Position numbers and translations under genes: made by a program. Source: a virus. Taken from it: 23,632 bases of DNA. The first letter of the stretch is position 1. The number at the start of each line of letters is the position of its first letter. Below, one piece after another: positions 6,201-23,175 of the stretch. Below the pieces are notes generated by a model. It was not told the DNA's origin and did no database searches. It was given only the letters and a program-made list of their open reading frames with translations. The stretch spans positions 1-23,632 of the IMG/VR virus record IMGVR_UViG_3300002835_001105, one strand, 5' to 3'.

Positions 6201-6237
6201 AAACAAAAAGGGAGGGGCTATTAAGCCCGCTCCCTTT
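6198..6237 (-). terminator. Strong intrinsic terminator after the 448-aa gene
   Basis: On the minus strand AAAGGGAG (6237-6230) pairs with CTCCCTTT (6214-6207). An inner GGGCT/AGCCC stem closes on a TAAT loop, with a single bulged C. A T-rich tail follows (TTTTTGTTTTTT). That is 13 base pairs and a U-tract, placed 22 nt after the stop of the 448-aa gene. The T-tract shares bases with the -33 element of the next promoter. Confidence 0.9.
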
Positions 6238-6259: not shown

Positions 6260-7606
6260 TTAGAAGGACTCCAAGGCAACTGCGTTTCCAGCAGCTGAGC
6301 AGCTGTTTACAATGAAGTTTGTAATGCTGGTTGTAGCAGTTCCGGCAGGAACATGGATAACCAACAAATACTGATCATTGTCAAAAGTGCTAGTTGGGTT
6401 GTTCCAACGAGGTACGTTGTGAAGGATCAAGACTTGATCATACAGACCACTGCGAGTTACTGCAGCAAGAGCTGGATCAGCCTCAATTTCACGCATACGC
6501 AAGCTGTCAACACGGCTGCTATCAGGGTAAGCATTTTGGAGGTAACGACCATCCAGAATTAGTTCACGAAGAACTGACTCACCAACACCAGAAGCCTGTA
6601 CAGGAGCTTGAGACTCAGATACACTAATACACTCTACTTTACAAGGATCTCCAGACTCGTCAACTACAGAAGCGTAGATGAACAAAGGCTCAAGATCGTA
6701 CTTGTCTGTAGGAGTAAAAGTACAGTTACCGAAAGTTGTGTCAACGTAAGCAGCAATGATGTCCATGTGGCTGTTTACAGCTCCCAAGCTAGAAGTAGCT
6801 GGAGTGTAAGTAGCAGATGCAACAGCATCAAAAATAGCTGCGTTAACATTTGTAGAAGCTGTAGCAGCTTTACTAAGAACTACGTTACCGTTTCCAGTGC
6901 TAGCAGAGTCAGCAGCACCTACAGATACAACAACTGTATTAGCAGGGATACCAGCAGCTACCACTTTGTCACCAACTGTGAACTTAGCCAAGTCAGCGTT
7001 AGCTACAACAATAGTTGCAGAAGCTGCAGTAGGATCAATAGCTACGCTAGCGTGAGCTTCTTTCCAAACTTTAGCTTGTACAAATTCTTTAACCAAAGGC
7101 TCTTCGTTAATCTGATCAGCCCATTTCAAAAGAGCTACAGTGTGATCAATTGCACTATTAGATGCATCACAGCAACCTGTGTAAGCATCCAAAGTTTGAT
7201 ACAACTGGTGGTTCAAGAAACGGAGAGCAGGAGAACCTTTAACATCAAGACGAAGACGTACTGTGCTATCACAGGCAAGACCTGCACAAGCATTAGCTTC
7301 TACTTTGATGATTTGGTTTACAGCAGCCTTACCAGAAACTTTGATAAGACGGCTTACATACTTAGGGTTGATAGCCTTAGACTTCTTAGACTCTTTGTAA
7401 CCACCGTGAACGGGGCCAATCTTGTCAGAAGCAAAACGACTACCTTCTGCTAGAATAAATGGTGAAGCTTGAGCTGAAACAACCTGGAAACTCTTGGCAT
7501 CAAAGAAGCCAATCTGACCAGCTGTCAACGCATCTGTACCACCGCTAGCAGCAAGAGTTGTGCTCGCAGGCAAAAAACTCTTACGGAATGCATTAGGAAA
7601 ATACAT
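6260..7606 (-). CDS. Putative major virion (tail or accessory head) protein
   Basis: A 448-residue protein that I do not recognise with certainty. It begins MYFPNAFRKSFLPA and holds GQIGFFDAKSFQVV at 30-43 and NPKYVSRLIKV at 80-90. Residues 186-260 form a Thr/Ala/Val-rich insert of the type GDKVVAAGIPANTVVVSVG...VVLSKAAT, which looks like an Ig-like or beta-sandwich decoration domain. The C-terminal part has LRELILDGRYLQNAYPDSSR and DQYLLVIHVPAGTATTSI. The gene has its own 3' terminator and its codons look clean and regular, as in highly expressed capsid-type genes. A tail-tube, sheath or abundant structural protein is a reasonable guess from size and position. It starts with ATG at 7606; the leader contains AAAACCC. 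Confidence 0.82.
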   Translation of the reverse strand: MYFPNAFRKSFLPASTTLAASGGTDALTAGQIGFFDAKSFQVVSAQASPFILAEGSRFASDKIGPVHGGYKESKKSKAINPKYVSRLIKVSGKAAVNQIIKVEANACAGLACDSTVRLRLDVKGSPALRFLNHQLYQTLDAYTGCCDASNSAIDHTVALLKWADQINEEPLVKEFVQAKVWKEAHASVAIDPTAASATIVVANADLAKFTVGDKVVAAGIPANTVVVSVGAADSASTGNGNVVLSKAATASTNVNAAIFDAVASATYTPATSSLGAVNSHMDIIAAYVDTTFGNCTFTPTDKYDLEPLFIYASVVDESGDPCKVECISVSESQAPVQASGVGESVLRELILDGRYLQNAYPDSSRVDSLRMREIEADPALAAVTRSGLYDQVLILHNVPRWNNPTSTFDNDQYLLVIHVPAGTATTSITNFIVNSCSAAGNAVALESF

Positions 7607-7642: not shown

Positions 7643-8056
7643 TTAGCTTAAGAACATTAGTTTATACTTGGTTGAAGCAATCAGACTCTTCATCTCATCT
7701 AACTGATTAACTACTTCTGAGAACGGCATTATTTTCTGCAGTTCTGCTATTTCGTTATACAGCTCTTTTACATGACTGAGAGCTTCTTGTACAGAACCAC
7801 ACTTATACGGAGGTACTGTAGGATATTCCAGAAGTTTTTCACGAGCTCCCTGGTATTGCTCTGCTACTTTGTCAATTAGACCTGGCATATCTTCATAAAA
7901 CTCACCAAGAGCTTTATGAGCTGCTAATGATCCTGGTCCTGTTATCTTTAAATGCAGCTGGTGAAATGAAACCACCATAGATTGAGCGTGGGCAATCATG
8001 GCTGCAGTTTCCATACAAGGACCCATTGGACTTGGTCTAGGTATAGTTTTTATCAT
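7643..8056 (-). CDS. Ferritin/Dps-like four-helix protein
   Basis: A 137-residue protein that resembles the phage-borne Dps/ferritin-like family (DUF5856-type). Residues 18-70 carry the diagnostic spacing: HAQSMVVSFHQLHLKITG, AAHKALGEFYEDMPGLID, AEQYQG. This places His32, His35, His47, Glu52, Glu55, Asp56, Asp62 and Glu66 where Dps-like proteins carry helix-contact and metal-ligand residues. The last 25 residues (VVNQLDEMKSLIASTKYKLMFLS) form the final amphipathic helix. The ATG shares one base with the TAA of the upstream connector-like gene (TAATG). Family members in phages have no settled role. Metal binding, DNA protection or a structural role in the particle are possible. I am fairly sure of the fold, not of the activity. 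Confidence 0.75.
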   Translation of the reverse strand: MIKTIPRPSPMGPCMETAAMIAHAQSMVVSFHQLHLKITGPGSLAAHKALGEFYEDMPGLIDKVAEQYQGAREKLLEYPTVPPYKCGSVQEALSHVKELYNEIAELQKIMPFSEVVNQLDEMKSLIASTKYKLMFLS

Positions 8057-8757
8057 TAGCTATTCTTTTGAACTTCTTGAGATTCTCTTTGATACTGGTT
8101 CATGCTTTCTATGTCACCGGCAAGAATAGCTGCAGCTTGGTCTACTAAGATTTCAGCAATGTCATCTTTAAACTCACACTCTTGGTTTGCTGTAAAAGTT
8201 TGACCAGTGCTTGCATTTACACATCCTTGAAACTGTACAGGTCTGGGTAGTCTGTAATAAACAACTCCCATATCTGTAATATTGAACTCTCCGTTTGTGT
8301 AAACTCTTAGTTTGTCCCCTACCAGCGTACTTAAAGTTTCAGCCCATTCAAAGCTTGGTCCTTTTGTATCACTTGTAAGAAGAACTCCCATATTGGCTTC
8401 CTCTACTTCATAAACTGTCATCCTTCTTTTTTCAGGACAACACTCAGAATTAGCATAAACATCTGTACGTACATAGTACAGATAGTCTGCAGGAAGTGTA
8501 GCTTCAAAGAACGTTTTCTTGTCTGCCGGAGTTAGATCCTGACTCTTTAATAAGACTCTAAGATCATCTACCAGTCCGGTTGATTGTTCAGATCCCTCTT
8601 TACGAGTATTGATACCGTAGACCATTCTACGTACCCACTCAAGCTGACCTTTATTAAATGCTTCCTGGATCTGCCAACATTCTATATTGTCATAATCCAA
8701 AGAAGCAAGCTTGTTCAGCCTTTGTTTGATCTTTATCTGTAAGAGGTTGTTGTTCAT
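8056..8757 (-). CDS. Putative head-tail connector protein
   Basis: A 233-residue protein. It starts with a helical segment containing WQIQEAFNKGQLEWVRRMV (residues 28-46). The central motif LPADYLYYVRTDVYANSECCPEKRR lies at about 89-113. Then come VEEANMGVLLTSDTKGPSFEWAE, a DKLRVYTNGEF...VYYRLPRPVQF strand pair, and an acidic end (CEFKDDIAEILVDQAAAILAGDIES). The pattern of P.DY.Y...S/T.VY...C, then YR.P..., then E...EI.D.A......GDIE occurs in structural proteins downstream of capsid genes in Bacteroidota phages. From position and size I infer a connector, ring or tail-completion role. It lies 6 nt after the 338-aa gene. Confidence 0.75.
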   Translation of the reverse strand: MNNNLLQIKIKQRLNKLASLDYDNIECWQIQEAFNKGQLEWVRRMVYGINTRKEGSEQSTGLVDDLRVLLKSQDLTPADKKTFFEATLPADYLYYVRTDVYANSECCPEKRRMTVYEVEEANMGVLLTSDTKGPSFEWAETLSTLVGDKLRVYTNGEFNITDMGVVYYRLPRPVQFQGCVNASTGQTFTANQECEFKDDIAEILVDQAAAILAGDIESMNQYQRESQEVQKNS

Positions 8758-9920: not shown

Positions 9921-11540
9921 TTAGAATGATCCGCCAGTTACAGGGTTTCTCATAACAATCTTCAATACCTTGGTTGGGTCTTTAACCCAGATAGCAGGCA
10001 TTGTTTGAGTCATGAACACACGGTAACCGTTGAAGTTGCCGGAGCTTTGGAAACCTTGAGTACGTCCCATGTAATCCATGGTACCGTTCTGATAGAACCA
10101 CTTCAATTGATTATCCCAAGATAACTTCAACAAGAAGATGTTGTCGTTAGTATTCTCAGTGATATCAAAGATGATGAAGTTATAAGAAGACAGAGGGAAA
10201 CCATCAATGATTGGGTTCTCAATGTCATTAGTGTGAATGTTATCAAACGCTGGGTTGAGAACAAACTTAACGTTAGCCAAGAAAGGAATAACGTATTGAG
10301 TGTAAGCAAAACCAAAGTTCAGATCCATTCCTTTACCGGTAATAGCACCGATTTCAGAAGCATTGATAACAAGTCCGCTGTTGATAGCTTCCTTCTTAAT
10401 TGCCTCGTTAACCAGCTTCATACCGCCCAAGCCAGTTTGTACAACCAACTGACGCTTAGGATCAGGTCCCTGAAACTCAACCTTACCATTGAAGAAGTTG
10501 AAGATTTCAGACTTGAACAAGTCAAGATTGAAAGAACCTTTGTTGTAGATACGCTTGTAAGAGTTATCCAACTGCTTCCAAAGACCTACAGAGAGACGGA
10601 TATCATCTGGACCATCTTGCTTAACCTTACCACCTTGACCCCACATAAGGTAAGTCTCGATGTCGTTAGCAACTTTAGTCAAATGAGCAGCCTCAAGAGT
10701 AGTCAAGAATGTACGAGTAAGCTGACCAGACTGGTAAGCCTTCTTTACATAATCTTTACCCATCTTAGAAGCCATGCTCTCAAGAGAGGTGATTGAAGGA
10801 TCAGTTGTTTTGTCAAAGTTTCTCCACAGCTCGATTACAGGAACTGTACCGTCAGCTTTCATACCACCTTTCATCATAAGGTCAGCACGAGAACTGATGC
10901 TGTAGTGTACGTGAGCTTCTGCACCACCAACGTAGTTGTAGAATTCACGGAAACCTGCAGAAACATTACCCAAGTCAGAGAAACGCTCTCCGTATTCACC
11001 ACGGGCAGAACCCTTGCGGAATACTTTAGTTCCTACTTTCAGGTACTTGTTGTCCAAAAACTTAGCGTTGTCGTTGTTAACAAGCTGAACAGTGTAGATG
11101 AAACCGTCACCAGCTGGGATAATATCATCAGCAGTGATGTACATTTCAACACCGTTGTACTTGTCATAGGTGATGATATCACCATGTCCAAAAGAACGCT
11201 TGTTTACTTTAATTTTAAAGCTCTGTCCGTCAATACCTTTAGTGGCATTGCCAGATTCTATATCTTCTGTGATATAGGGTAGATCCTGAGCTACAGGGAT
11301 CTGCCATTTGTACTCACCACGTGCGTTATCTACAGAGATAACGTTCTTTCCTCCAAAGCTGGACATCTGGTACAAAGGCATTTCTACCTTTTGAGCCATT
11401 GCCCATAGATCTACGGGACCAAGGTCAGTTGGCTCCGCACTCTTCAAGAGGTTTGAAAGGTGGTAAGAATCTACGTGTGAGCTAGTTTGATAGCTGGTAT
11501 CTCGTAGAAATATACCATTGTTCAAAACAGGAGTTGCCAT
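9921..11540 (-). CDS. Major capsid protein, probably HK97-type fold
   Basis: A 539-residue protein. I call it the major capsid protein from size, from position directly after a scaffold-like gene downstream of portal and terminase, and from its regular, clean codon use. The N-terminus is MATPVLNNGIFLRDTSYQTS. An N-arm and E-loop-like region contains VISVDNARGEYKWQIPVAQD, an aspartate/tyrosine-rich middle follows, and a C-terminal P-domain-like stretch includes SGNFNGYRVFMTQTMPAIWV. No protease or catalytic motif is seen. It begins with ATG at 11540, 29 nt after the scaffold stop, and is followed by a structured 140-nt spacer. The HK97 fold itself is inferred from context and not proven by motif. 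Confidence 0.85.
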   Translation of the reverse strand: MATPVLNNGIFLRDTSYQTSSHVDSYHLSNLLKSAEPTDLGPVDLWAMAQKVEMPLYQMSSFGGKNVISVDNARGEYKWQIPVAQDLPYITEDIESGNATKGIDGQSFKIKVNKRSFGHGDIITYDKYNGVEMYITADDIIPAGDGFIYTVQLVNNDNAKFLDNKYLKVGTKVFRKGSARGEYGERFSDLGNVSAGFREFYNYVGGAEAHVHYSISSRADLMMKGGMKADGTVPVIELWRNFDKTTDPSITSLESMASKMGKDYVKKAYQSGQLTRTFLTTLEAAHLTKVANDIETYLMWGQGGKVKQDGPDDIRLSVGLWKQLDNSYKRIYNKGSFNLDLFKSEIFNFFNGKVEFQGPDPKRQLVVQTGLGGMKLVNEAIKKEAINSGLVINASEIGAITGKGMDLNFGFAYTQYVIPFLANVKFVLNPAFDNIHTNDIENPIIDGFPLSSYNFIIFDITENTNDNIFLLKLSWDNQLKWFYQNGTMDYMGRTQGFQSSGNFNGYRVFMTQTMPAIWVKDPTKVLKIVMRNPVTGGSF

Positions 11541-11569: not shown

Positions 11570-12841
11570 TTAGCGTTTAAAAATATTTTGAGGTCTTGCG
11601 ATCTTTCTTGGTCTTTGTTCTTCTTCTTCCTGATAGGTTGAGACGTTTTTACGACTCTGCTCAGTCTTAAGCTGGCGTACTGTTTGTTCCACCGCTTGGT
11701 TCTTTCCTTGCTTTACCAAGTTTTGACGGTACTCATCAGGGTTAGAAAGTAACCAAAGAGCTTCTGCAATCAAGGGATAGTTAGGCTCTACAAACTGATA
11801 CTTTTCTAAAAGGTGACCCAACAGATTGGTTGGTCTACCACTGACAGATGGATATTGAGGCTGGACAAGACCACTATAAAGTTGTGCTTGAGTTTTCTTA
11901 TCTAACTTCAGACCATTAATTTCAGCTGGTCTAAGTGCTTCAAACACATTCTGCATATAAGCCTGAGCAGCTTGTTCTTGTTGTTGTTTCCTAGCTTCTT
12001 GCTCTACAAGCTGGCTCTGCACGATTTCTTCCTGCATCTGATCCAGCTTAGGTTTGAACTGTTTGGCTTTCTTTTCCAGTACTCCAAGATCTTTCCAGGT
12101 AGTAAGCTCTTCTTCAATTTCTTCTTCACTACCAAATCCGGTAGCTTGGAGATAAGATCTTACAATACCTTCCTGGTCACTTTCGTCAGACGGGTTCAAA
12201 GAACGAACCTGTTCAACCTGAGCCAGGGCTTGGAAAAGACCTTTAAGATCCTGCCCACCGTCCATTACATACTTAGCTGCATACTGCAACTCTTCAGGTA
12301 AAGACTCAAAGAACTCTTTGGGAGTCTTGGCTGCTACTTCTTGCTTGAGATTATCAACGTTAGCCTGCCAAAGCTCCTCTATGTCTTTCTCTCCGAGTCC
12401 ACCTAAGTACTCATCAAGAGATTGTTTACTTTCATCATAGTCATCAAAGGCAAACATTTCCTTTGACTCAATGCGTTTTTTAAGAAACTCAACCAGTCCG
12501 GACTTTTCTGTTCGAGGACGACCACCTTTAGGTTTAGCCTCTTCTTGTTCCTCTTGGTCTAGTTCATCAAATACGTTTGTAGATGTTTCACGAGAAACAG
12601 GGGGTTCTGTGTCTTTGTTATCTTCTCCCTTGTCTTCAGGCTCCTGTTCTTTTTCTTCAGACTGATCTATAAAACTTAGATCTACATCCTTATTAGAAAA
12701 GATACTGGGCTTTGCCTCAGGCTTTTTAGCCTCAGCTGCTGTAGGAGTTACGATGCTTTCTGCACCAGGGGCTCCGAGCCAGCTATCAATGTCTACATCT
12801 ACTTGTTGTACATTAGTCTGTACAGTGGTTTGGTTTTCCAT
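11570..12841 (-). CDS. Scaffold-like acidic coiled-coil protein
   Basis: A 423-residue, very acidic and Gln/Glu/Lys-rich protein placed exactly between portal and major capsid protein, the usual place for a scaffolding protein. Residues 50-110 are disordered and charged (SEEKEQEPEDKGEDNKD, ELDQEEQEEAKPKGGRPR). Residues 240-300 are predicted coiled coil (KAKQFKPKLDQMQEEIVQSQL, EARKQQQEQAAQAYMQ). The C-terminus is basic (QRPRKIARPQNIFKR), as expected for a capsid-contacting helix. It has its own promoter region and follows the terminator that closes the portal gene. No protease triad is seen, so any scaffold cleavage would need another protein. Confidence 0.8.
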   Translation of the reverse strand: MENQTTVQTNVQQVDVDIDSWLGAPGAESIVTPTAAEAKKPEAKPSIFSNKDVDLSFIDQSEEKEQEPEDKGEDNKDTEPPVSRETSTNVFDELDQEEQEEAKPKGGRPRTEKSGLVEFLKKRIESKEMFAFDDYDESKQSLDEYLGGLGEKDIEELWQANVDNLKQEVAAKTPKEFFESLPEELQYAAKYVMDGGQDLKGLFQALAQVEQVRSLNPSDESDQEGIVRSYLQATGFGSEEEIEEELTTWKDLGVLEKKAKQFKPKLDQMQEEIVQSQLVEQEARKQQQEQAAQAYMQNVFEALRPAEINGLKLDKKTQAQLYSGLVQPQYPSVSGRPTNLLGHLLEKYQFVEPNYPLIAEALWLLSNPDEYRQNLVKQGKNQAVEQTVRQLKTEQSRKNVSTYQEEEEQRPRKIARPQNIFKR

Positions 12842-12974: not shown

Positions 12975-15719
12975 TTATTTTGCTTTTTTACCCGGTTTGT
13001 CGTACTTGTTCTTGTTTTCACGGGCTATCTGTAATTGTTTCTCTGCTATTTCCTTTTGAGTCTGAAGCTTTTCACGCTCTATTTGTAGCTTAGAACTTCC
13101 TTGTTCTTTTTGAGTCAACAACTGTTCTCTTTTAACATTCATCTGATCTTGATAGCGTTGCTCATTACGTATACCTTCTAAAGCATCTTGAAAATCAGAT
13201 TGTTGGTTCTTGTTTAAATCAACCATAGAACCATATCCTGCTGCTCTAATCTCAGCAACAGTAATATCTTTCTGACGGTTAAGTTCATTTTCTTGTGATC
13301 TAAACTCAAGATCCATCTGTTTTTGACGTTCCTGGCTTTCAAGCATTTCTTGCTGCATTTGTTGTTGCTGCTGAAGTTCAGCTTGTTTCTGAGCCATAGA
13401 TTTTTCTTCTGCTGCTTTTAACACACCAGTAAGTTCAGCAATAGACTCAGATTTAATTACATTTCCTAAGTCATAAATAGATGCTCCAGTAGTATTGTTA
13501 TTAAGAGCTACCTGTTTAAGCTGCTCCATAATTGCACGTGAGTTAGTCTTTGTAGTACAAAATATATTTAGATCTCTTAATAAAAGTTCTGTACCGTTAA
13601 CTTCAAAATTTACTTTCTCATCTTTTCCTGTTATGTAAGTTAATCTTACACTAGGCTTCTTTGAATGATAATACTGGGCCAAATCAGTTCTCATTTGGTG
13701 AACTCTTGGCATTAAATTATCTGAGTGTTGTATAAAGTATTGTTCTGTTTGAGCATATGAAGCATTCATGGCTTGCTCTATACCAGTAGCCGTTTGCTGT
13801 TGGGCAATCTGTTGACCCATACGCTGTGGAGTAAGACCAATAACCTCAAAGGCTTGGTTCTTAAAATAGTTAGCAAGTTGAATACGAGAAAGCAAACGAT
13901 TGGTTTGCTCCAAGTTTAAAACTTGGTAGTGTTGAAAATTAAGAGCATTTTCTGTATTGGTAATAGATGTATCCAGAGGTAACATCTGAAAGTTCTTCAT
14001 TGCCACATAGGCTTTAGCCAGATTATTTTTACCCCAGTCTTCTCCCAAAGAGTGACGTGGTAAAGCATTCTGGTCTAACATAATAACCGTACCAAGCTCA
14101 TCTACCAGGATGTCTGCAATCTGGTTATTGACAATGTTGTAGCCTATCTGATATGGCTTCATAAGATCTACCAGTGAAATACTGCGGGTGTTACGATCAC
14201 TAAATACAGCACCTTCCACCGGTAGCTTACAGCCATAAAGAGTGTGGTCTCCTTTAAACTGGAATGGAACTTTACCTGGTTTACCACCATTAAGACCTAA
14301 ATAAATAGGATTTATACCACCTGGATTATTCATACCCCAGAAAGCAGGACGGTTAGGTCCGATCTTAATACCACCCCAGGTTTCATTGATCCAAATCCAA
14401 TCAATATGCTCTCCAAAAACCAAGTTATCCTTAGACTTTTGTTTATATAAAATAGTATTATACTGTGGCTTATCAGTTATTTTATAAGTTTCAGTAACAA
14501 TATCTTGTATGATTTCTCCTTCTGTTGTGATTTTTGTCAGATGTCCAACTTTACGTTGTGATTTCCAATAGATAGTAGAAACTCTAAGTAAATGACTTTT
14601 ACCAAAGTCAACAGTGTCTTCAGAGTCAGCCATAATCCATTCTACTATATCACCGGTACCAAACTGTGCGTCATATACAGAAGTAAATTGACGATAAGCC
14701 AGTGATGGCATTTGTGTATTCCACTCATGAGAACGAGTAGGATCATAATAAGTTCCGTCGTTTTGATAACCTTGAATAGCATAGCCGGCTGAACGTACAG
14801 GATATATAGCTTCTAAAGATTCTAACTGATCTTGAGTCATCATCCAACCAAACTTGTCAATCACATCTGATACACTCATCATATCCATCTTACCTACCCA
14901 GTTACCTTGAGAAATGTAACGTACATCAGGAGACTTGTGATAGAAAGTAAGTAAAGGATTCCATAACTCTACTTCATAATCATCTTCCATCATACGGAAA
15001 TGCCAGAACTCACGGTCCGTAATAAGCATATCACGAAAGCCTCTTTCCTCAAGTTCTTGCATTTTAAAACGTTCTTCATCTACACTCATCTGGTGGCTAG
15101 CCCACTCCTCAATCATTGATCTATAATCTTTTTTAAAGAAAGATTCTATTTCAGGAAGCTGCTTTAGGTTCTCAGGAGACATTGCCTTCTGCATTTCTTC
15201 ACTTTCTAGATCTATACCCATGCCTAACATCTCAACAAGCATCCTTCTTTCAGCATCTTCTAAAAGAACTTTTTCTACCATGGATCTTTTTTCTTCCAAC
15301 ATTTCGTTGTAAGAAATATCATCCACAGCTTTAAACATAATACGAGAAGATCTTTTGGCAAACTCATTACATAGTACATTGATTACATTTGGAACAATAG
15401 GATAGAACTTCAGTTCCAGGGCAGAAACGTCCTCTTTAGTCAGGGTGTCTATAAGATCTGCCATTTCATTGTCTTCCTCTACAATATAATCCGTCTTATC
15501 AATAATACCTTTGGCCAGCTTATAATTCTTCATCAGACGTCTTGCATTACGTCTAAGCTGCTTCATGCCCTGAAACTCTAGCCAATCCAGGTTCCACGCT
15601 CTCCACTCTTCATCCTTTTCTTTCTCTGAAAGAAACTGAATAGGCTGGGTAAGAGTACCCATCTTGTTATAGTCGGCCTTTTTGCCAGCCTTCAGATCTA
15701 GAGCATTATATACTTGCAT
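12975..15719 (-). CDS. Portal protein
   Basis: A 914-residue protein between terminase and scaffold/capsid, the position of the portal. The first 150 residues are helical and charged (EEWRAWNLDWLEFQGMKQLR, TKEDVSALELKFYPIVPN), followed by VLCNEFAKRSSRIMFKAVD. The core carries WHFRMMEDDYEVELWNPLL and ISQGNWVGKMDMMSVSDVID, segments typical of large portal proteins of Bacteroidota phages. Residues 600-665 include LEQTNRLLSRIQLANYFKNQ and LTPQRMGQQIAQQQTATGIE, fitting the stem and crown-contact helices. The last 150 residues are a long Gln/Glu/Lys coiled coil ending in a basic tail. At 914 residues it is at the large end for portals, the excess being mainly this coiled coil. Confidence 0.85.
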   Translation of the reverse strand: MQVYNALDLKAGKKADYNKMGTLTQPIQFLSEKEKDEEWRAWNLDWLEFQGMKQLRRNARRLMKNYKLAKGIIDKTDYIVEEDNEMADLIDTLTKEDVSALELKFYPIVPNVINVLCNEFAKRSSRIMFKAVDDISYNEMLEEKRSMVEKVLLEDAERRMLVEMLGMGIDLESEEMQKAMSPENLKQLPEIESFFKKDYRSMIEEWASHQMSVDEERFKMQELEERGFRDMLITDREFWHFRMMEDDYEVELWNPLLTFYHKSPDVRYISQGNWVGKMDMMSVSDVIDKFGWMMTQDQLESLEAIYPVRSAGYAIQGYQNDGTYYDPTRSHEWNTQMPSLAYRQFTSVYDAQFGTGDIVEWIMADSEDTVDFGKSHLLRVSTIYWKSQRKVGHLTKITTEGEIIQDIVTETYKITDKPQYNTILYKQKSKDNLVFGEHIDWIWINETWGGIKIGPNRPAFWGMNNPGGINPIYLGLNGGKPGKVPFQFKGDHTLYGCKLPVEGAVFSDRNTRSISLVDLMKPYQIGYNIVNNQIADILVDELGTVIMLDQNALPRHSLGEDWGKNNLAKAYVAMKNFQMLPLDTSITNTENALNFQHYQVLNLEQTNRLLSRIQLANYFKNQAFEVIGLTPQRMGQQIAQQQTATGIEQAMNASYAQTEQYFIQHSDNLMPRVHQMRTDLAQYYHSKKPSVRLTYITGKDEKVNFEVNGTELLLRDLNIFCTTKTNSRAIMEQLKQVALNNNTTGASIYDLGNVIKSESIAELTGVLKAAEEKSMAQKQAELQQQQQMQQEMLESQERQKQMDLEFRSQENELNRQKDITVAEIRAAGYGSMVDLNKNQQSDFQDALEGIRNEQRYQDQMNVKREQLLTQKEQGSSKLQIEREKLQTQKEIAEKQLQIARENKNKYDKPGKKAK

Positions 15720-15724
15720 GATAA

Positions 15725-16036
15725 TTAATTATTTAGGTCAGTTTCAGCCTCAGTCTTAGCCGTAAAAAAAGAGTTAGCTGGTATTGTCGTAGTTCCAGAT
15801 CCACTGCCACTCCAAGTAATAGTTCCAGTACTAATACCTGAACCATAAGGGCTTACAGGAATTGTCCACGGTGTGGTAGTACCTGGCAGGTAACTAGGGG
15901 AAGTAATAACAGGCTCAGTTTCCTCCTCCTCTTCTTTTAAAAGCAGTAAAGCCTCTTCTAAAGTCAAGGAGCTTTCTTTAATCAAACGGGAAAGAATGGT
16001 TACTTTCTGGGCATGTAATGGGATATTTTCCATCAT
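15725..16036 (-). CDS. Small acidic protein between terminase and portal
   Basis: A 103-residue protein. Residues 8-35 form a helix (HAQKVTILSRLIKESSLTLE, then EALLLLKEEEEE), followed by a Pro/Thr/Ser/Gly-rich low-complexity C-terminus (YLPGTTTPWTIPV, GSGSGTTTIPA). It overlaps the terminase stop by four bases (ATGA) and ends 5 nt before the portal ATG, so it belongs to the packaging operon. I do not recognise a family; a small adaptor that binds portal or terminase through its helix is possible. Confidence 0.75.
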   Translation of the reverse strand: MMENIPLHAQKVTILSRLIKESSLTLEEALLLLKEEEEETEPVITSPSYLPGTTTPWTIPVSPYGSGISTGTITWSGSGSGTTTIPANSFFTAKTEAETDLNN

Positions 16037-18237
16037 TTTATATTTTTAAAGGGCGATCTAGGTAGTCTCATACCGTTAGAACCTCCTTTAGAGGACCCTA
16101 TATGTCTAAAAGGTCCCCAATTTAATTTACTAAATTTCTGGGAGTTATCCAACTTTTGTTCGCTAACCTCTACACGTTTAGCCAGTCCTCGGTTAGCTTG
16201 TTGAACCTTTGCAAAAGCTATAAGAGCACAAAAAGCTACCAGCCGGTCAACGTTGACTCCTTCCTGGTAAGCTTGCATCTCTTTTAAAAGCATGATGTCC
16301 GGAATCCTCTCTACACCATAGATTGTTTTTACAATCTCTCCATCTGGTTTGGTTTCATGGTCTAGCTCTTCTTTTAAATATTCAACCCCATAGGACAAGA
16401 GGTTTCCTTTAAAAATGGTTCCTACGTTCTTCCAGCCATATTCTTGGAATACATTTCGGTTAGCACCAAGATCTTTTAAGAATAGAATCATGTCTTTAGG
16501 TACTAGGTAACGCTGTTTCTTCTTTGATATCATGTACTGGATGAACAGAGCTACGTTATTCTCCACTATAGTCCAGGCGTTATACCACTCTATAAGCAAC
16601 TCAAGTCTTTCATGAGTTTTGTTAAGATCATCAAACCTGCCACACCAGCTTGCCACTATCTTATCCCGCTCAATAATGTTGGTAACCTTTCCATTGCCCT
16701 CATCTTTGATTACTTCCACCGGGTTTTTATAAACGTAGATGGCACAAAGAGATTCTGATGTAGTGGTCTTTCCTTCTCCCACCGGGTCAACCGATGCATA
16801 ATACATCCCAAACTGAGGATCTTTTACAGGTCTCTCATACACACAAATAACACCTTCTTTATCTTCTGTCTTTTTAGAAATAGGAAACTCCATAATAGGA
16901 ATCTTCCTGGATGGTTTATCTATGATCTTTCCTTCTGCATTTCTTGATAAGTCTAAATACTCAACAGAATACTCTTTATCCTGTATACGCTGTATTTGTT
17001 TAGATACAAGATGCGGAGGAAACTTAGATTCTTTTCTTGTTGCAAAAGCTTCTTCTATGTTAGTTGGTTTCTGAGATATACGAAGCTGATACTGTTCAGG
17101 AGTAAGATCTCTTTTCCATTTTATTCTTTCTTCTATGATTGCTTCTAGAGCTTCTTCAACTTTTGAGTTACCATACTCATCTATAAAGGGAGGCATACTC
17201 CACTGCTCAGGAATAAACAGTCCTGTTTTTCCAAGTGTACCTTCCTTGTCTATAAGATTAGAATCTACTGCATAGATATCATTTGCTTCTGGTTGAAGTA
17301 CCATTAGTTTTAATGGTTCACATGCATCAAGATCACCCACTGAGCCGGCAGCAATAAACATACCAGTGGTAATCATACCACTCTGCATAGCTGGTCTCAT
17401 ATACTCATAGGTAAGATCCATCTTTGGAGCAATGCCGGCCTCCTCATGAAAGAAGTAAGTACACGGACCACCCACACCATTTGTTGGATCTTTTTCAAAA
17501 GAGGTTCCAGTAATAATAGATTTATTACCCTTATGTGTATCTCTTCCTCCAATCCTTACCTTAATACGTTGTTGCCAAGAAAATACTTTATCTGGATCAC
17601 TTGGTCTATACCAAGCAGTGTGTTCATTCAAAAAAGTTCTATACTCAGTAAGCATACGCCAAGTACCTTTCTCTGAAATGTAATCTTTAAGACTAGCACC
17701 TATTTTTAGTACAGCACCATTTTCAAACCAGTACATATTTATAAGCTTTGCAGCATGAAAATATGAAGAAGCTATCTGACGTTTTTTTAGAATAGCTGAG
17801 TGCCTGTAGTGTAATTCAGCAAGCAGCTCATATAAAGCCATGTGATACTGAGCGTCTCTTACTTTAGCAAAGTCAAAACGTTTTTCTTCTTTGTCATAGA
17901 TAGGAAGAAAGTTTAGCCACATGTAGTAGTCCCGACTGATATACCATACATTGTCGTTGTTTTTGACAATAATGCCTGATTTACACTTCAGTTTCTGATC
18001 ATCCCAGTAGTTTATAAAATCTTTAGTCTTTACAGGAGCTGGACAGTAATATCCATTCTTCTGGTACTTTCTTGCTTCAGCATTAAAGATTAAACTACTT
18101 TCATCAAACTGATATTTACCAGGTTCTTTAAAACAAGACAATACGAAGTCCCTAAACTCTTCTCTTGTATAAAAAGTAGTAAGGTCCCATTGACCTTTAT
18201 CATAAGTAGGAACTTCTATGTAGTAATTACTTTTCAC
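16033..18237 (-). CDS. terL: Large terminase subunit (TerL)
   Basis: A 734-residue DNA-packaging motor with N-terminal ATPase and C-terminal RNase H-like nuclease. The ATPase shows ILKKRQIASSYF at 149-160 where a Walker A of the RQxGxS type is expected, CTYFFHEEAG at 259-268 as Walker B with His in place of the usual Asp, and FIAAGSVGDLD at 294-304 as the coupling motif. The nuclease shows the expected acidic residues: Asp484 in YYASVDPVGEGK, Glu559 in TIVENN, and Asp664 in GVNVDRLVAF. The length suits large terminases. The start codon is GTG at 18237, overlapping the upstream 70-aa gene by 11 nt. The Walker A has no GKS/GKT, so it is a variant rather than a textbook motif. The TerL assignment is secure from the nuclease signature and gene order. 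Confidence 0.9.
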   Translation of the reverse strand: MKSNYYIEVPTYDKGQWDLTTFYTREEFRDFVLSCFKEPGKYQFDESSLIFNAEARKYQKNGYYCPAPVKTKDFINYWDDQKLKCKSGIIVKNNDNVWYISRDYYMWLNFLPIYDKEEKRFDFAKVRDAQYHMALYELLAELHYRHSAILKKRQIASSYFHAAKLINMYWFENGAVLKIGASLKDYISEKGTWRMLTEYRTFLNEHTAWYRPSDPDKVFSWQQRIKVRIGGRDTHKGNKSIITGTSFEKDPTNGVGGPCTYFFHEEAGIAPKMDLTYEYMRPAMQSGMITTGMFIAAGSVGDLDACEPLKLMVLQPEANDIYAVDSNLIDKEGTLGKTGLFIPEQWSMPPFIDEYGNSKVEEALEAIIEERIKWKRDLTPEQYQLRISQKPTNIEEAFATRKESKFPPHLVSKQIQRIQDKEYSVEYLDLSRNAEGKIIDKPSRKIPIMEFPISKKTEDKEGVICVYERPVKDPQFGMYYASVDPVGEGKTTTSESLCAIYVYKNPVEVIKDEGNGKVTNIIERDKIVASWCGRFDDLNKTHERLELLIEWYNAWTIVENNVALFIQYMISKKKQRYLVPKDMILFLKDLGANRNVFQEYGWKNVGTIFKGNLLSYGVEYLKEELDHETKPDGEIVKTIYGVERIPDIMLLKEMQAYQEGVNVDRLVAFCALIAFAKVQQANRGLAKRVEVSEQKLDNSQKFSKLNWGPFRHIGSSKGGSNGMRLPRSPFKNIK

Positions 18238-21302: not shown

Positions 21303-21654
21303 CGCATAAGAATTTAAAGTCCAGTAATATGTTTCCTGCAGAGCTTACCTTCATGTCCGGATGGATATAGATCTTCTTCTTGTTTTTGCCTTCTTTCTTT
21401 ATCAAATTCTTTTTCTCGGCTTTGGTCAGACAGTTACGTACAGACTGAGTAGAAGAAAAAATCTTTTTCTCATATGCTTTGTTACAGAAACTTGTTAATT
21501 CCTGGTCTCCTTCTATAGCAAGTAGAGTCAGACAGTTTAGATCTGCTTCACTTACCGGTATATCATACAGGTAGCAGTGCGTAAGAATTTGATACTTGAC
21601 AGCTTGCCAAGTATTCATCCTCACTCTTTTTTCCACCTGATTAACTATTGCCAT
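21289..21654 (-). CDS. Winged-helix-like protein
   Basis: A 121-residue protein. After MNTWQAVKYQILTHCYLYD comes a helical bundle (VSEADLNCLTLLAIEGDQEL). Then FSSTQSVRNCLTKAEKKNLI looks like a helix-turn-helix with a recognition helix, followed by KKEGKNKKKIYIHPDMKVS, a beta-wing-like hairpin, and LLDFKFLCVASS at the end. This fits a small winged-helix DNA-binding protein, though I cannot name the family. It is coupled to the acetyltransferase gene by TAATG and overlaps the IHF-like gene by 14 nt. Being in the same unit as an IHF-like protein suggests work on phage DNA or transcription. Confidence 0.65.
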   Translation of the reverse strand: MAIVNQVEKRVRMNTWQAVKYQILTHCYLYDIPVSEADLNCLTLLAIEGDQELTSFCNKAYEKKIFSSTQSVRNCLTKAEKKNLIKKEGKNKKKIYIHPDMKVSSAGNILLDFKFLCVASS

Positions 21655-22085
21655 TATACTTCCATTTTAAAACTCATATAATCTTCTCCGGTCTTACCCC
21701 AGTTTTTATGAAGCACTACCGGTTCTGCTCCAAGATTTTCAAAGATGTGCCAGCTGGCTCCTTTCCTTGCTTCTCCTATTAGATACTCATATCTCATGTC
21801 TTTTGCCCAGTCCAGAACGGTGGTGATCAACTGATAACCCAGACCTTGACCGCGGTGAAATGGCAGGACCGTAAAACTATCTATGTGTACTACGTTATCA
21901 CTTTGCCAGGTCATGATAGCTTCTGCTGCCAGACCTTTTTTGTCCTTAAACCAAATACCCTGGCACTCTTTGTTTTCGTTGAGCATGTATACTTTATACT
22001 TCTCGTCCCAACGTAGTTCTTTGGGATGCTCACGCTCAAAGATGTATGTCTCTCTGTAGTCTCTAAGCTTATAGAGCGTGTTCAT
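21654..22085 (-). CDS. GNAT-family N-acetyltransferase
   Basis: A 143-residue protein with the GNAT layout. Motif A is at about 70-85, SFTVLPFHRGQGLGYQLI, with the R/Q-x-x-G-x-G/A acetyl-CoA pyrophosphate-binding loop as RGQGLG (78-83). It is followed by a long helix (TTVLDWAKDMRYEYLIGEAR) and a C-terminal strand/helix (SWHIFENLGAEPVVLHKNWG) typical of motif B. The length is normal for the family. The substrate is not visible: it may be a protein amine or a small molecule. Phage GNATs have been linked to modification of host proteins or phage products, but nothing here fixes the target. TAATG overlaps couple it to genes on both sides. Confidence 0.85.
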   Translation of the reverse strand: MNTLYKLRDYRETYIFEREHPKELRWDEKYKVYMLNENKECQGIWFKDKKGLAAEAIMTWQSDNVVHIDSFTVLPFHRGQGLGYQLITTVLDWAKDMRYEYLIGEARKGASWHIFENLGAEPVVLHKNWGKTGEDYMSFKMEV

Positions 22086-22798: not shown

Positions 22799-22841
22799 AG
22801 TTACTGTTTAGTGAGTTATAACTATAAAATGGTGAGTAACT
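22799..22841 (-). terminator. Weak hairpin at the 3' end of the HxlR-type gene
   Basis: AGTTACT (22799-22805) and AGTAACT (22835-22841) form a perfect 7-bp inverted repeat with a 29-nt interior. On the minus strand it overlaps the TAG of the regulator gene and is followed, tens of bases on, by T-rich stretches. It could act as a weak terminator or simply be symmetry; the remaining spacer down to 22701 shows nothing else I can support. Confidence 0.35.
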
Positions 22842-23175
22842 AAATTTCTTCAGCCTTATAGAGCTTATAAGCCATAGTAAAATATTCTAAGGAGCTTTCT
22901 AGATAACTAAGTAAAGATAGGCCGGTCTTTGATAACTCGTAGGTAACCTTTGGGGGGACCTCGTTATAAGAGGTGCGGGTAACTAACTTTTGGTTCTCCA
23001 TCCTCTTTAAAGTCTGGGTAAGTACCTTGGCTGAGCAGCCGGGAAGGTTATCATGGATCTCATTAAACCTAAGAGGATCTCCATTTCCCAGTACTAGGAT
23101 ACACTCTATACTCCACTTATTATAGAGTAAAGATCTTTTAAAATCTATTATATCCTGTAGTTCCTTGGTAATCAT
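22840..23175 (-). CDS. HxlR-family winged-helix transcription regulator
   Basis: A 111-residue protein with the full HxlR layout: NKWSIECILVLGNGDPLRFN (helix 1 and start of helix 2), EIHDNLPGCSAKVLTQTLKR (helix-turn-helix with recognition helix), MENQKLVTRTSYNEVPPKVT (the conserved L..R..Y...PP.V.Y wing), and YELSKTGLSLLSYLESSLEY for the dimerisation helix. The N-terminal cysteine common in redox-sensing HxlR members is absent; Cys remain at positions 24 and 48. It lies alone, divergently from the plus-strand gene that starts at 23457. It may regulate its own promoter and the adjacent divergent one. Both an early repressor and an activator of a later block would fit. Confidence 0.85.
   Translation of the reverse strand: MITKELQDIIDFKRSLLYNKWSIECILVLGNGDPLRFNEIHDNLPGCSAKVLTQTLKRMENQKLVTRTSYNEVPPKVTYELSKTGLSLLSYLESSLEYFTMAYKLYKAEEI

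Follow-up and report, generated by a model that had tools for sequence, protein, structure and literature searches.

The window analysed here (the whole 23,632-nucleotide stretch of the IMG/VR virus record IMGVR_UViG_3300002835_001105) is a fragment of a crAss-like phage (Crassvirales), in which a crAss-type major capsid protein (MCP), portal protein, terminase large subunit (TerL) and ring protein are encoded in the crAss order. Genes follow one another as TerL, portal, a 423-aa acidic protein, MCP, a 367-aa protein, the ring protein, a 137-aa protein that is the target of this work, and a 448-aa protein. The features referred to below are the following:

16033–18237, minus strand: terminase large subunit (PHROG 6681, 1.5e-66)
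12975–15719, minus strand: portal protein (PHROG 6547, 8e-92)
11570–12841, minus strand: probable scaffolding protein, 423 aa, acidic (pI 4.6), from position, composition and alignment
11573–11605, minus strand: C-terminal tag KIARPQNIFKR of the probable scaffold, conserved past a variable acidic linker
9921–11540, minus strand: crAss-type MCP (Pfam Crass_capsid, 2e-30)
8056–8757, minus strand: crAss ring (tail barrel) protein homologue, 233 aa (csAssE-Sib homologue; phicrAss001 gp34, E 0.0073)
8054–8058, minus strand: TAATG stop/start overlap of the ring gene and the DUF5856 gene
7643–8056, minus strand: Dps-like mini-ferritin (DUF5856), 137 aa (Pfam, PHROG, AlphaFold, Foldseek, VIA-align, PDB profile)
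8033–8050, minus strand: N-terminal tag K3-P8 (KTIPRP) of the mini-ferritin, a short form of K[ILT]xRP(x)xIFS, conserved in relatives and shared with the probable scaffold
7859–7963, minus strand: putative ferroxidase segment H32 to E66, with H35, H47, D62 and E66, invariant in 50 homologues and aligned with Dps
6260–7606, minus strand: capsid protein, probably of auxiliary or decoration type, 448 aa (structure model and profile)
6215–6228, minus strand: terminator-like hairpin after the 448-aa gene (consensus scan only)

The gene upstream of the target had been called connector-like from the letters alone, which agrees with the homology of its 233-aa product to the csAssE-Sib protein named “ring protein” and with the phicrAss001 ring protein gp34 as best PDB profile match. 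The gene right after the target is structural, as had also been proposed: the model of its 448-aa product (m13d91607ea16, pLDDT 80.9) best matches the 333-residue chain a of 7qof, the phicrAss001 icosahedral capsid (E 2.3e-10), its profile reaches the 8eci decoration protein with an E of 0.007, and on these models an auxiliary capsid protein is the most likely assignment. The 423-aa protein was without family match in Pfam or PHROG, so that its role as a scaffold is called probable, and is read from its position between portal and MCP, its composition and its alignment.

The same gene order, minus the target, is found in csAssE-Sib, Cellulophaga phi17:2 and Leptolyngbya phage Lbo-JY46, and PF19174 (the Pfam family DUF5856) is absent from the whole records of these three phages and of Fpv3 and cr55_1. 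The best annotated relative of the MCP belongs to a phage of the cyanobacterium Leptolyngbya (L141, PP438436; 28% identity over 99%), and the hosts of the clade may for this reason not be Bacteroidota. Upstream of the packaging genes, an HxlR-type regulator (22840–23175, minus strand; 1e-19) and a GNAT acetyltransferase (21654–22085, minus strand; 7e-11) are also encoded.

The target ORF starts with an ATG at 8056 and runs to 7643 on the minus strand, a strand left unstated in the sequence-only reading, its start overlapping the stop codon of the 233-aa gene (8757 to 8056) in the letters AGCTAATGATAAAA. The TAATG coupling pointed out in the sequence-only reading is real and recurrent: of 155 loci from relatives, 77 have a DUF5856 start codon whose first base is also the final base of the upstream stop codon, and in all 155 the two codons are at most 21 nt apart. 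Since the spacing of start and stop recurs across these loci, the arrangement is not due to chance.

The place of the gene is also conserved, across a large group of uncultured crAss-like phages. Loci were collected both with the DUF5856 protein itself (56) and with the MCP (80), the latter selection being unbiased for the DUF5856 gene. Of the loci selected by MCP, 47 contain a ring gene followed by 700 bp or more of sequence; DUF5856 directly follows the ring gene in 45 of them, one carries a true ferritin in its place and one carries neither (L110). Taken together, the environmental loci in which a ring gene leaves 1.5 kb of space number 162, of which 161 (all but L095) have DUF5856, and 156 of those have it adjacent, a set that was mostly fetched by the DUF5856 gene itself, the 47-locus figure being the fair one. 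Each of 11 long genomes contains exactly one DUF5856 copy. A scan of host genomes gave a single match (L143, RFPL01000035.1), on a contig binned as Sphingomonadaceae, which is probably a misbinned phage contig because it resembles the phage loci.

The target matches Pfam DUF5856 (8.2e-17; 62.5 bits, above the curated cut-off of 34.6) and PHROG 858 (2e-21). The name of the latter, “starvation-inducible transcriptional regulator”, has been widely copied and, for a protein of ferritin-like type, appears to be wrong. The AlphaFold model (pLDDT 91.8) is a four-helix bundle (helices at residues 14-37, 43-72, 89-109 and 113-135), and its best structural matches, by both Foldseek and VIA-align, are Dps proteins (VIA-align against MsDps2: Z 16.3, 126 residues, 2.2 Å). 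Searching the PDB with the sequence by itself gave weak matches (best E 7e-4), and it was the profile search, which retrieved Dps proteins across the PDB (best E 7e-8), that settled the assignment. By all these routes the target falls inside the ferritin-like superfamily, and the sequence-only reading was right both in assigning it there and in naming DUF5856.

The spacing of His and acidic residues on which that assignment had leaned also stands. H35 and H47 are 12 residues apart, D62 and E66 lie at +15 and +19 from H47, and the four align with the ferroxidase residues of Bacillus Dlp-2 and H. pylori NAP (HP-NAP). Over 50 aligned homologues, H32, H35, H47, Y54, D62, E66, Q69 and G70 are invariant, and homologues with as little as about 30% identity, from Ackermannviridae, Straboviridae and several small phages, also keep the H, H, D, E set. 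The fifth Dps ligand (an Asp four residues past the second His) is not conserved, being N in 23, G in 10 and D in 2 of 35 representatives; where Dps has a Trp behind the first ferroxidase His, all 50 homologues have a Leu; and the BC helix between helices B and C is absent from the model, in which residues 73-88 form a loop. The target is a Dps-like mini-ferritin, which we do not file as Dps because it lacks the BC helix and the conserved fifth ligand. An iron function of the DUF5856 protein appears highly probable.

At L095 (12767-13366), the DUF5856 position is taken by a 199-aa protein that matches Pfam Ferritin (1e-19) and has a bacterial ferritin as best PDB match (5e-18). A search with this protein gave 32 loci, 38 together with the earlier ones (35 contigs); the ferritin adjoins the ring gene in 31 of the 38, of which 5 also have DUF5856, and follows the portal gene in 4. 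True ferritins with long N-terminal tails are located in head-tail modules at L095:12767-13366, L148:5315-5941 and L231-L262, and the two families stand side by side in L148, L156 and L185. The ferroxidase residues are invariant across the 25 distinct ferritin sequences, numbered after E. coli FtnA; the alignment with V. cholerae ferritin covers the same region as this numbering. On an MCP tree, the ferritin label changes 11 times, with at least 8 of the changes forced by supported branches, a count to be read as approximate given the quick method and the long outgroup branches. Two families of the ferritin superfamily alternate repeatedly at one virion locus, which argues that ferritin chemistry is what selection keeps there.

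Besides the fold, the N-terminal tails deserve attention. In DUF5856 proteins they comprise 11-50 aa and are variable apart from K[IL]xRP, which is followed by IFS in several clades; many DUF5856 tails and several ferritin tails bear K[IL]xRP, some of them extended to (x)xIFS. A motif of this type is shared by such tails of both families and by the C-terminus of the probable scaffold (RKIARPQNIFKR), which in the alignment ends as RK[IL]xRPxNIFKR after a variable acidic linker. The core motif is present in 95% of the distinct scaffold C-termini and 70% of the DUF5856 N-termini, compared with 0-13% of other termini (both ends of 14 conserved virion genes) and a genome background of 1.5-2.6%, in a comparison designed after the likeness had been noticed and made over related rows. 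The chance that the five-residue core alone matches some virion-protein terminus is not negligible, and it is the long form that gives the comparison its strength. In genome G011, a scaffold profile scores the scaffold with 31.7 bits and the DUF5856 tail with 26.0, the next best of the 125 proteins reaching 8.4. Ferritin tails such as MQKIARPTIFSTKG obtain 19-21 bits (p 0.001-0.002). The DUF5856 tails of G005 and G010 have the short form only and do not stand out with the full scaffold profile, and the tag of the window (KTIPRP) is a short form too. Composition as the source of the likeness was rejected by shuffling for 68 of 96 tails (p ≤ 0.05). A DNA-level cause was ruled out by the tag codons, which vary synonymously; the constraint therefore acts on the peptide. 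The table of K/T or I/L choices in scaffold versus ferritin tags is dominated by K/K, and no co-variation is claimed.

A second type of tail (xLKR) occurs in both the DUF5856 protein and the ferritin of the same clades (L134, L148, L178, L185, L237, L244 and L254); the scaffold profile matches neither the xLKR ferritin tails nor those of the clade with a post-portal ferritin (L250-L253). The N-terminal region of the probable scaffold contains a conserved KPNIFS (KPSIFS in the window, 12695-12712), like the IFS part of the ferritin tails. Both the alternation of DUF5856 with ferritin and the scaffold-like tag are new beyond what had been read from the window before.

To regard any role in the virion as entirely new had, however, gone too far, as members of DUF5856 are known from purified virions of LIMEstone1 and Sajous1. 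LIMEstone1 ORF78 (DUF5856, 8.8e-29; 117 aa; 13,149 Da, as computed from the identical phiDP10.3 protein) is listed in Table 2 of the virion mass spectrometry with 13.15 kDa, 28.21% coverage and 3 peptides, and the unknown structural proteins of this phage all have structural counterparts in phage ViI (PMC3296691); the LIMEstone1 record labels ORF78 “confirmed structural protein”. Sajous1 gp217, also a 117-aa DUF5856 protein, gave 10 spectra from CsCl-purified virions, was modelled as ferritin and was suggested to have a “ferrojan horse” role, the authors cautioning that low spectral counts can reflect contamination (PMC10892097). The published virion detections of DUF5856 rest on few peptides (3 peptides and 10 spectra, respectively). 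In T4-like phages, DUF5856 (rI.-1) sits by rI, outside the head genes. In the P22-like podovirus MW202483 (L202:14998-15360), it is the next gene after that of the portal, the two overlapping by one base, a further association of DUF5856 with head genes. Association of the DUF5856 protein with the virion is, in our opinion, likely. In the collection of papers searched, DUF5856 is nowhere mentioned, nor is Crassvirales together with ferritin.

We propose that the DUF5856 gene product is made together with the head-tail proteins and would be carried in, or built into, the particle. The four-helix domain would pair and assemble like Dps, and H35 and H47 of one subunit, together with D62 and E66 of its neighbour, would form an Fe(II)-oxidising site. 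The N-terminal tail with K[IL]xRP (K[IL]xRPxIFS in some clades) is a candidate docking peptide, whose likeness to the scaffold C-terminus would bring the ferritin to the same procapsid partner, the most economical one being the inner face of the MCP lattice. The outcome would be a ferritin cage within an HK97-fold shell, as in encapsulins, this being the location that we infer for the particle of the window phage; the likely benefit would be that iron and peroxide are kept off the viral DNA during assembly or after entry. The basis for this explanation is formed by the fold, the ligand conservation, the gene position, the repeated swap and the shared tag, along with the published virion detections of distant family members; against it count the design of the tag comparison after the fact and over related rows, the shortness of the five-residue core, the xLKR tails, the missing fifth ligand, Trp and BC helix, the T4-like location and the few published peptides. 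For the whole chain, namely a packaged, ferroxidase-competent mini-ferritin recruited by a scaffold-like docking peptide, we put the probability at about 0.5.

Alternatively, the protein could act free in the infected cell against iron and oxidative stress, as an unpackaged, Dps-like protector of DNA encoded in a late operon for timing and provided with a DNA-binding tail. The intact ligands and the use of a true ferritin as replacement would suit this role, as would the family members outside the head module of T4-like phages and the Dps and manganese catalase of gut phages, which have been so interpreted (PMC8008677). Nonetheless, the place after the ring gene is kept throughout the clade, the tail motif matches the scaffold and not a generic basic tail, and DUF5856 relatives have been found in virions, so we consider an exclusively intracellular protector rather unlikely. 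Mounting at the portal, neck or tail barrel, either as a ferrojan-type iron carrier or as a neck component keeping its iron site, appears improbable: in its favour are the translational coupling to the ring gene, the other phages in which ferritin or DUF5856 comes right behind the portal gene, and the ferrojan role suggested for Sajous1 gp217, but the tag resembles that of the probable scaffold, whose site of action is the procapsid interior, and host tonB and feoB mutants showed no reduced infection by Vi01-like phages (PMC10892097). A purely structural four-helix bundle with its iron chemistry lost, which the sequence-only reading had also considered, would agree with the non-conserved fifth ligand position and Trp and with a gene sitting between two structural ones, but is very improbable, since the four metal ligands stay unchanged even at about 30% identity and a ferritin whose ferroxidase site is complete has taken the place of the gene several times.

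The packaged mini-ferritin that we favour can be compared with several known systems. The target shares its family and the invariant H, H, D and E with the other PF19174/PHROG 858 proteins (T4-like rI.-1, LIMEstone1 ORF78 and Sajous1 gp217), but has a tail, whereas LIMEstone1 ORF78 and Sajous1 gp217 begin at the first helix, without the tagged tail. With Dps (MsDps2, HP-NAP, Dlp-2) it has in common a fold of four helices and, from the ferroxidase site between subunits, the two His residues and the Asp/Glu pair; unlike Dps, it has no BC helix in the model, does not conserve the fifth ligand or the Trp, and carries a tail motif like that of a phage scaffold. The proposal for Sajous1 gp217 also concerns a DUF5856 protein in a phage particle with a suggested role in iron handling, although that study put gp217 on the tail, and the family, the tag and the exchange with true ferritin were not noted there (PMC10892097). 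The virion of phicrAss001 contains non-structural cargo, as proposed for the target, but this cargo consists of large ejection and RNA-polymerase proteins (PMC10172136).

By analogy, the cargo of encapsulins would be the closest working parallel. Encapsulin shells are HK97-fold and are thought to derive from HK97-type phages (PMC8346489), and those with ferritin-like cargo likewise join a ferritin-type protein, an HK97-fold shell and a short conserved peptide ending a flexible tail (PMC8346489, PMC11202242). The DUF5856 gene lies in the same operon region as that of the crAss MCP, an HK97-fold shell, an arrangement like that of encapsulin-type cargo encoded beside its shell protein. Unlike in encapsulins, the phage shell is a working capsid and the peptide sits at the N-terminus, with a likeness to the end of a scaffold; loading is here a prediction. 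More tentatively, it is possible, if doubtful, that the HK97-fold capsid of this whole clade serves as a natural compartment for iron, into which interchangeable ferritins (Dps-like or true) are brought by an N-terminal peptide that was either copied from the capsid-binding end of the scaffold or converged on it; it would then be the phage counterpart, possibly the living precursor type, of ferritin-carrying encapsulins.

If the proposed explanation is true, phage heads would bear ferritin cages by design, linking their assembly with iron and oxidative-stress biology, and the study of encapsulin evolution would gain a testable phage parallel. It also suggests that a short peptide could direct cargo into a phage head, and offers a defined system in which the “ferrojan horse” idea, iron carried by phage particles, can be put to the test. 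Even without packaging, the recurrent exchange of two ferritin families at one locus shows sustained selection for ferritin chemistry among the late genes of these phages.
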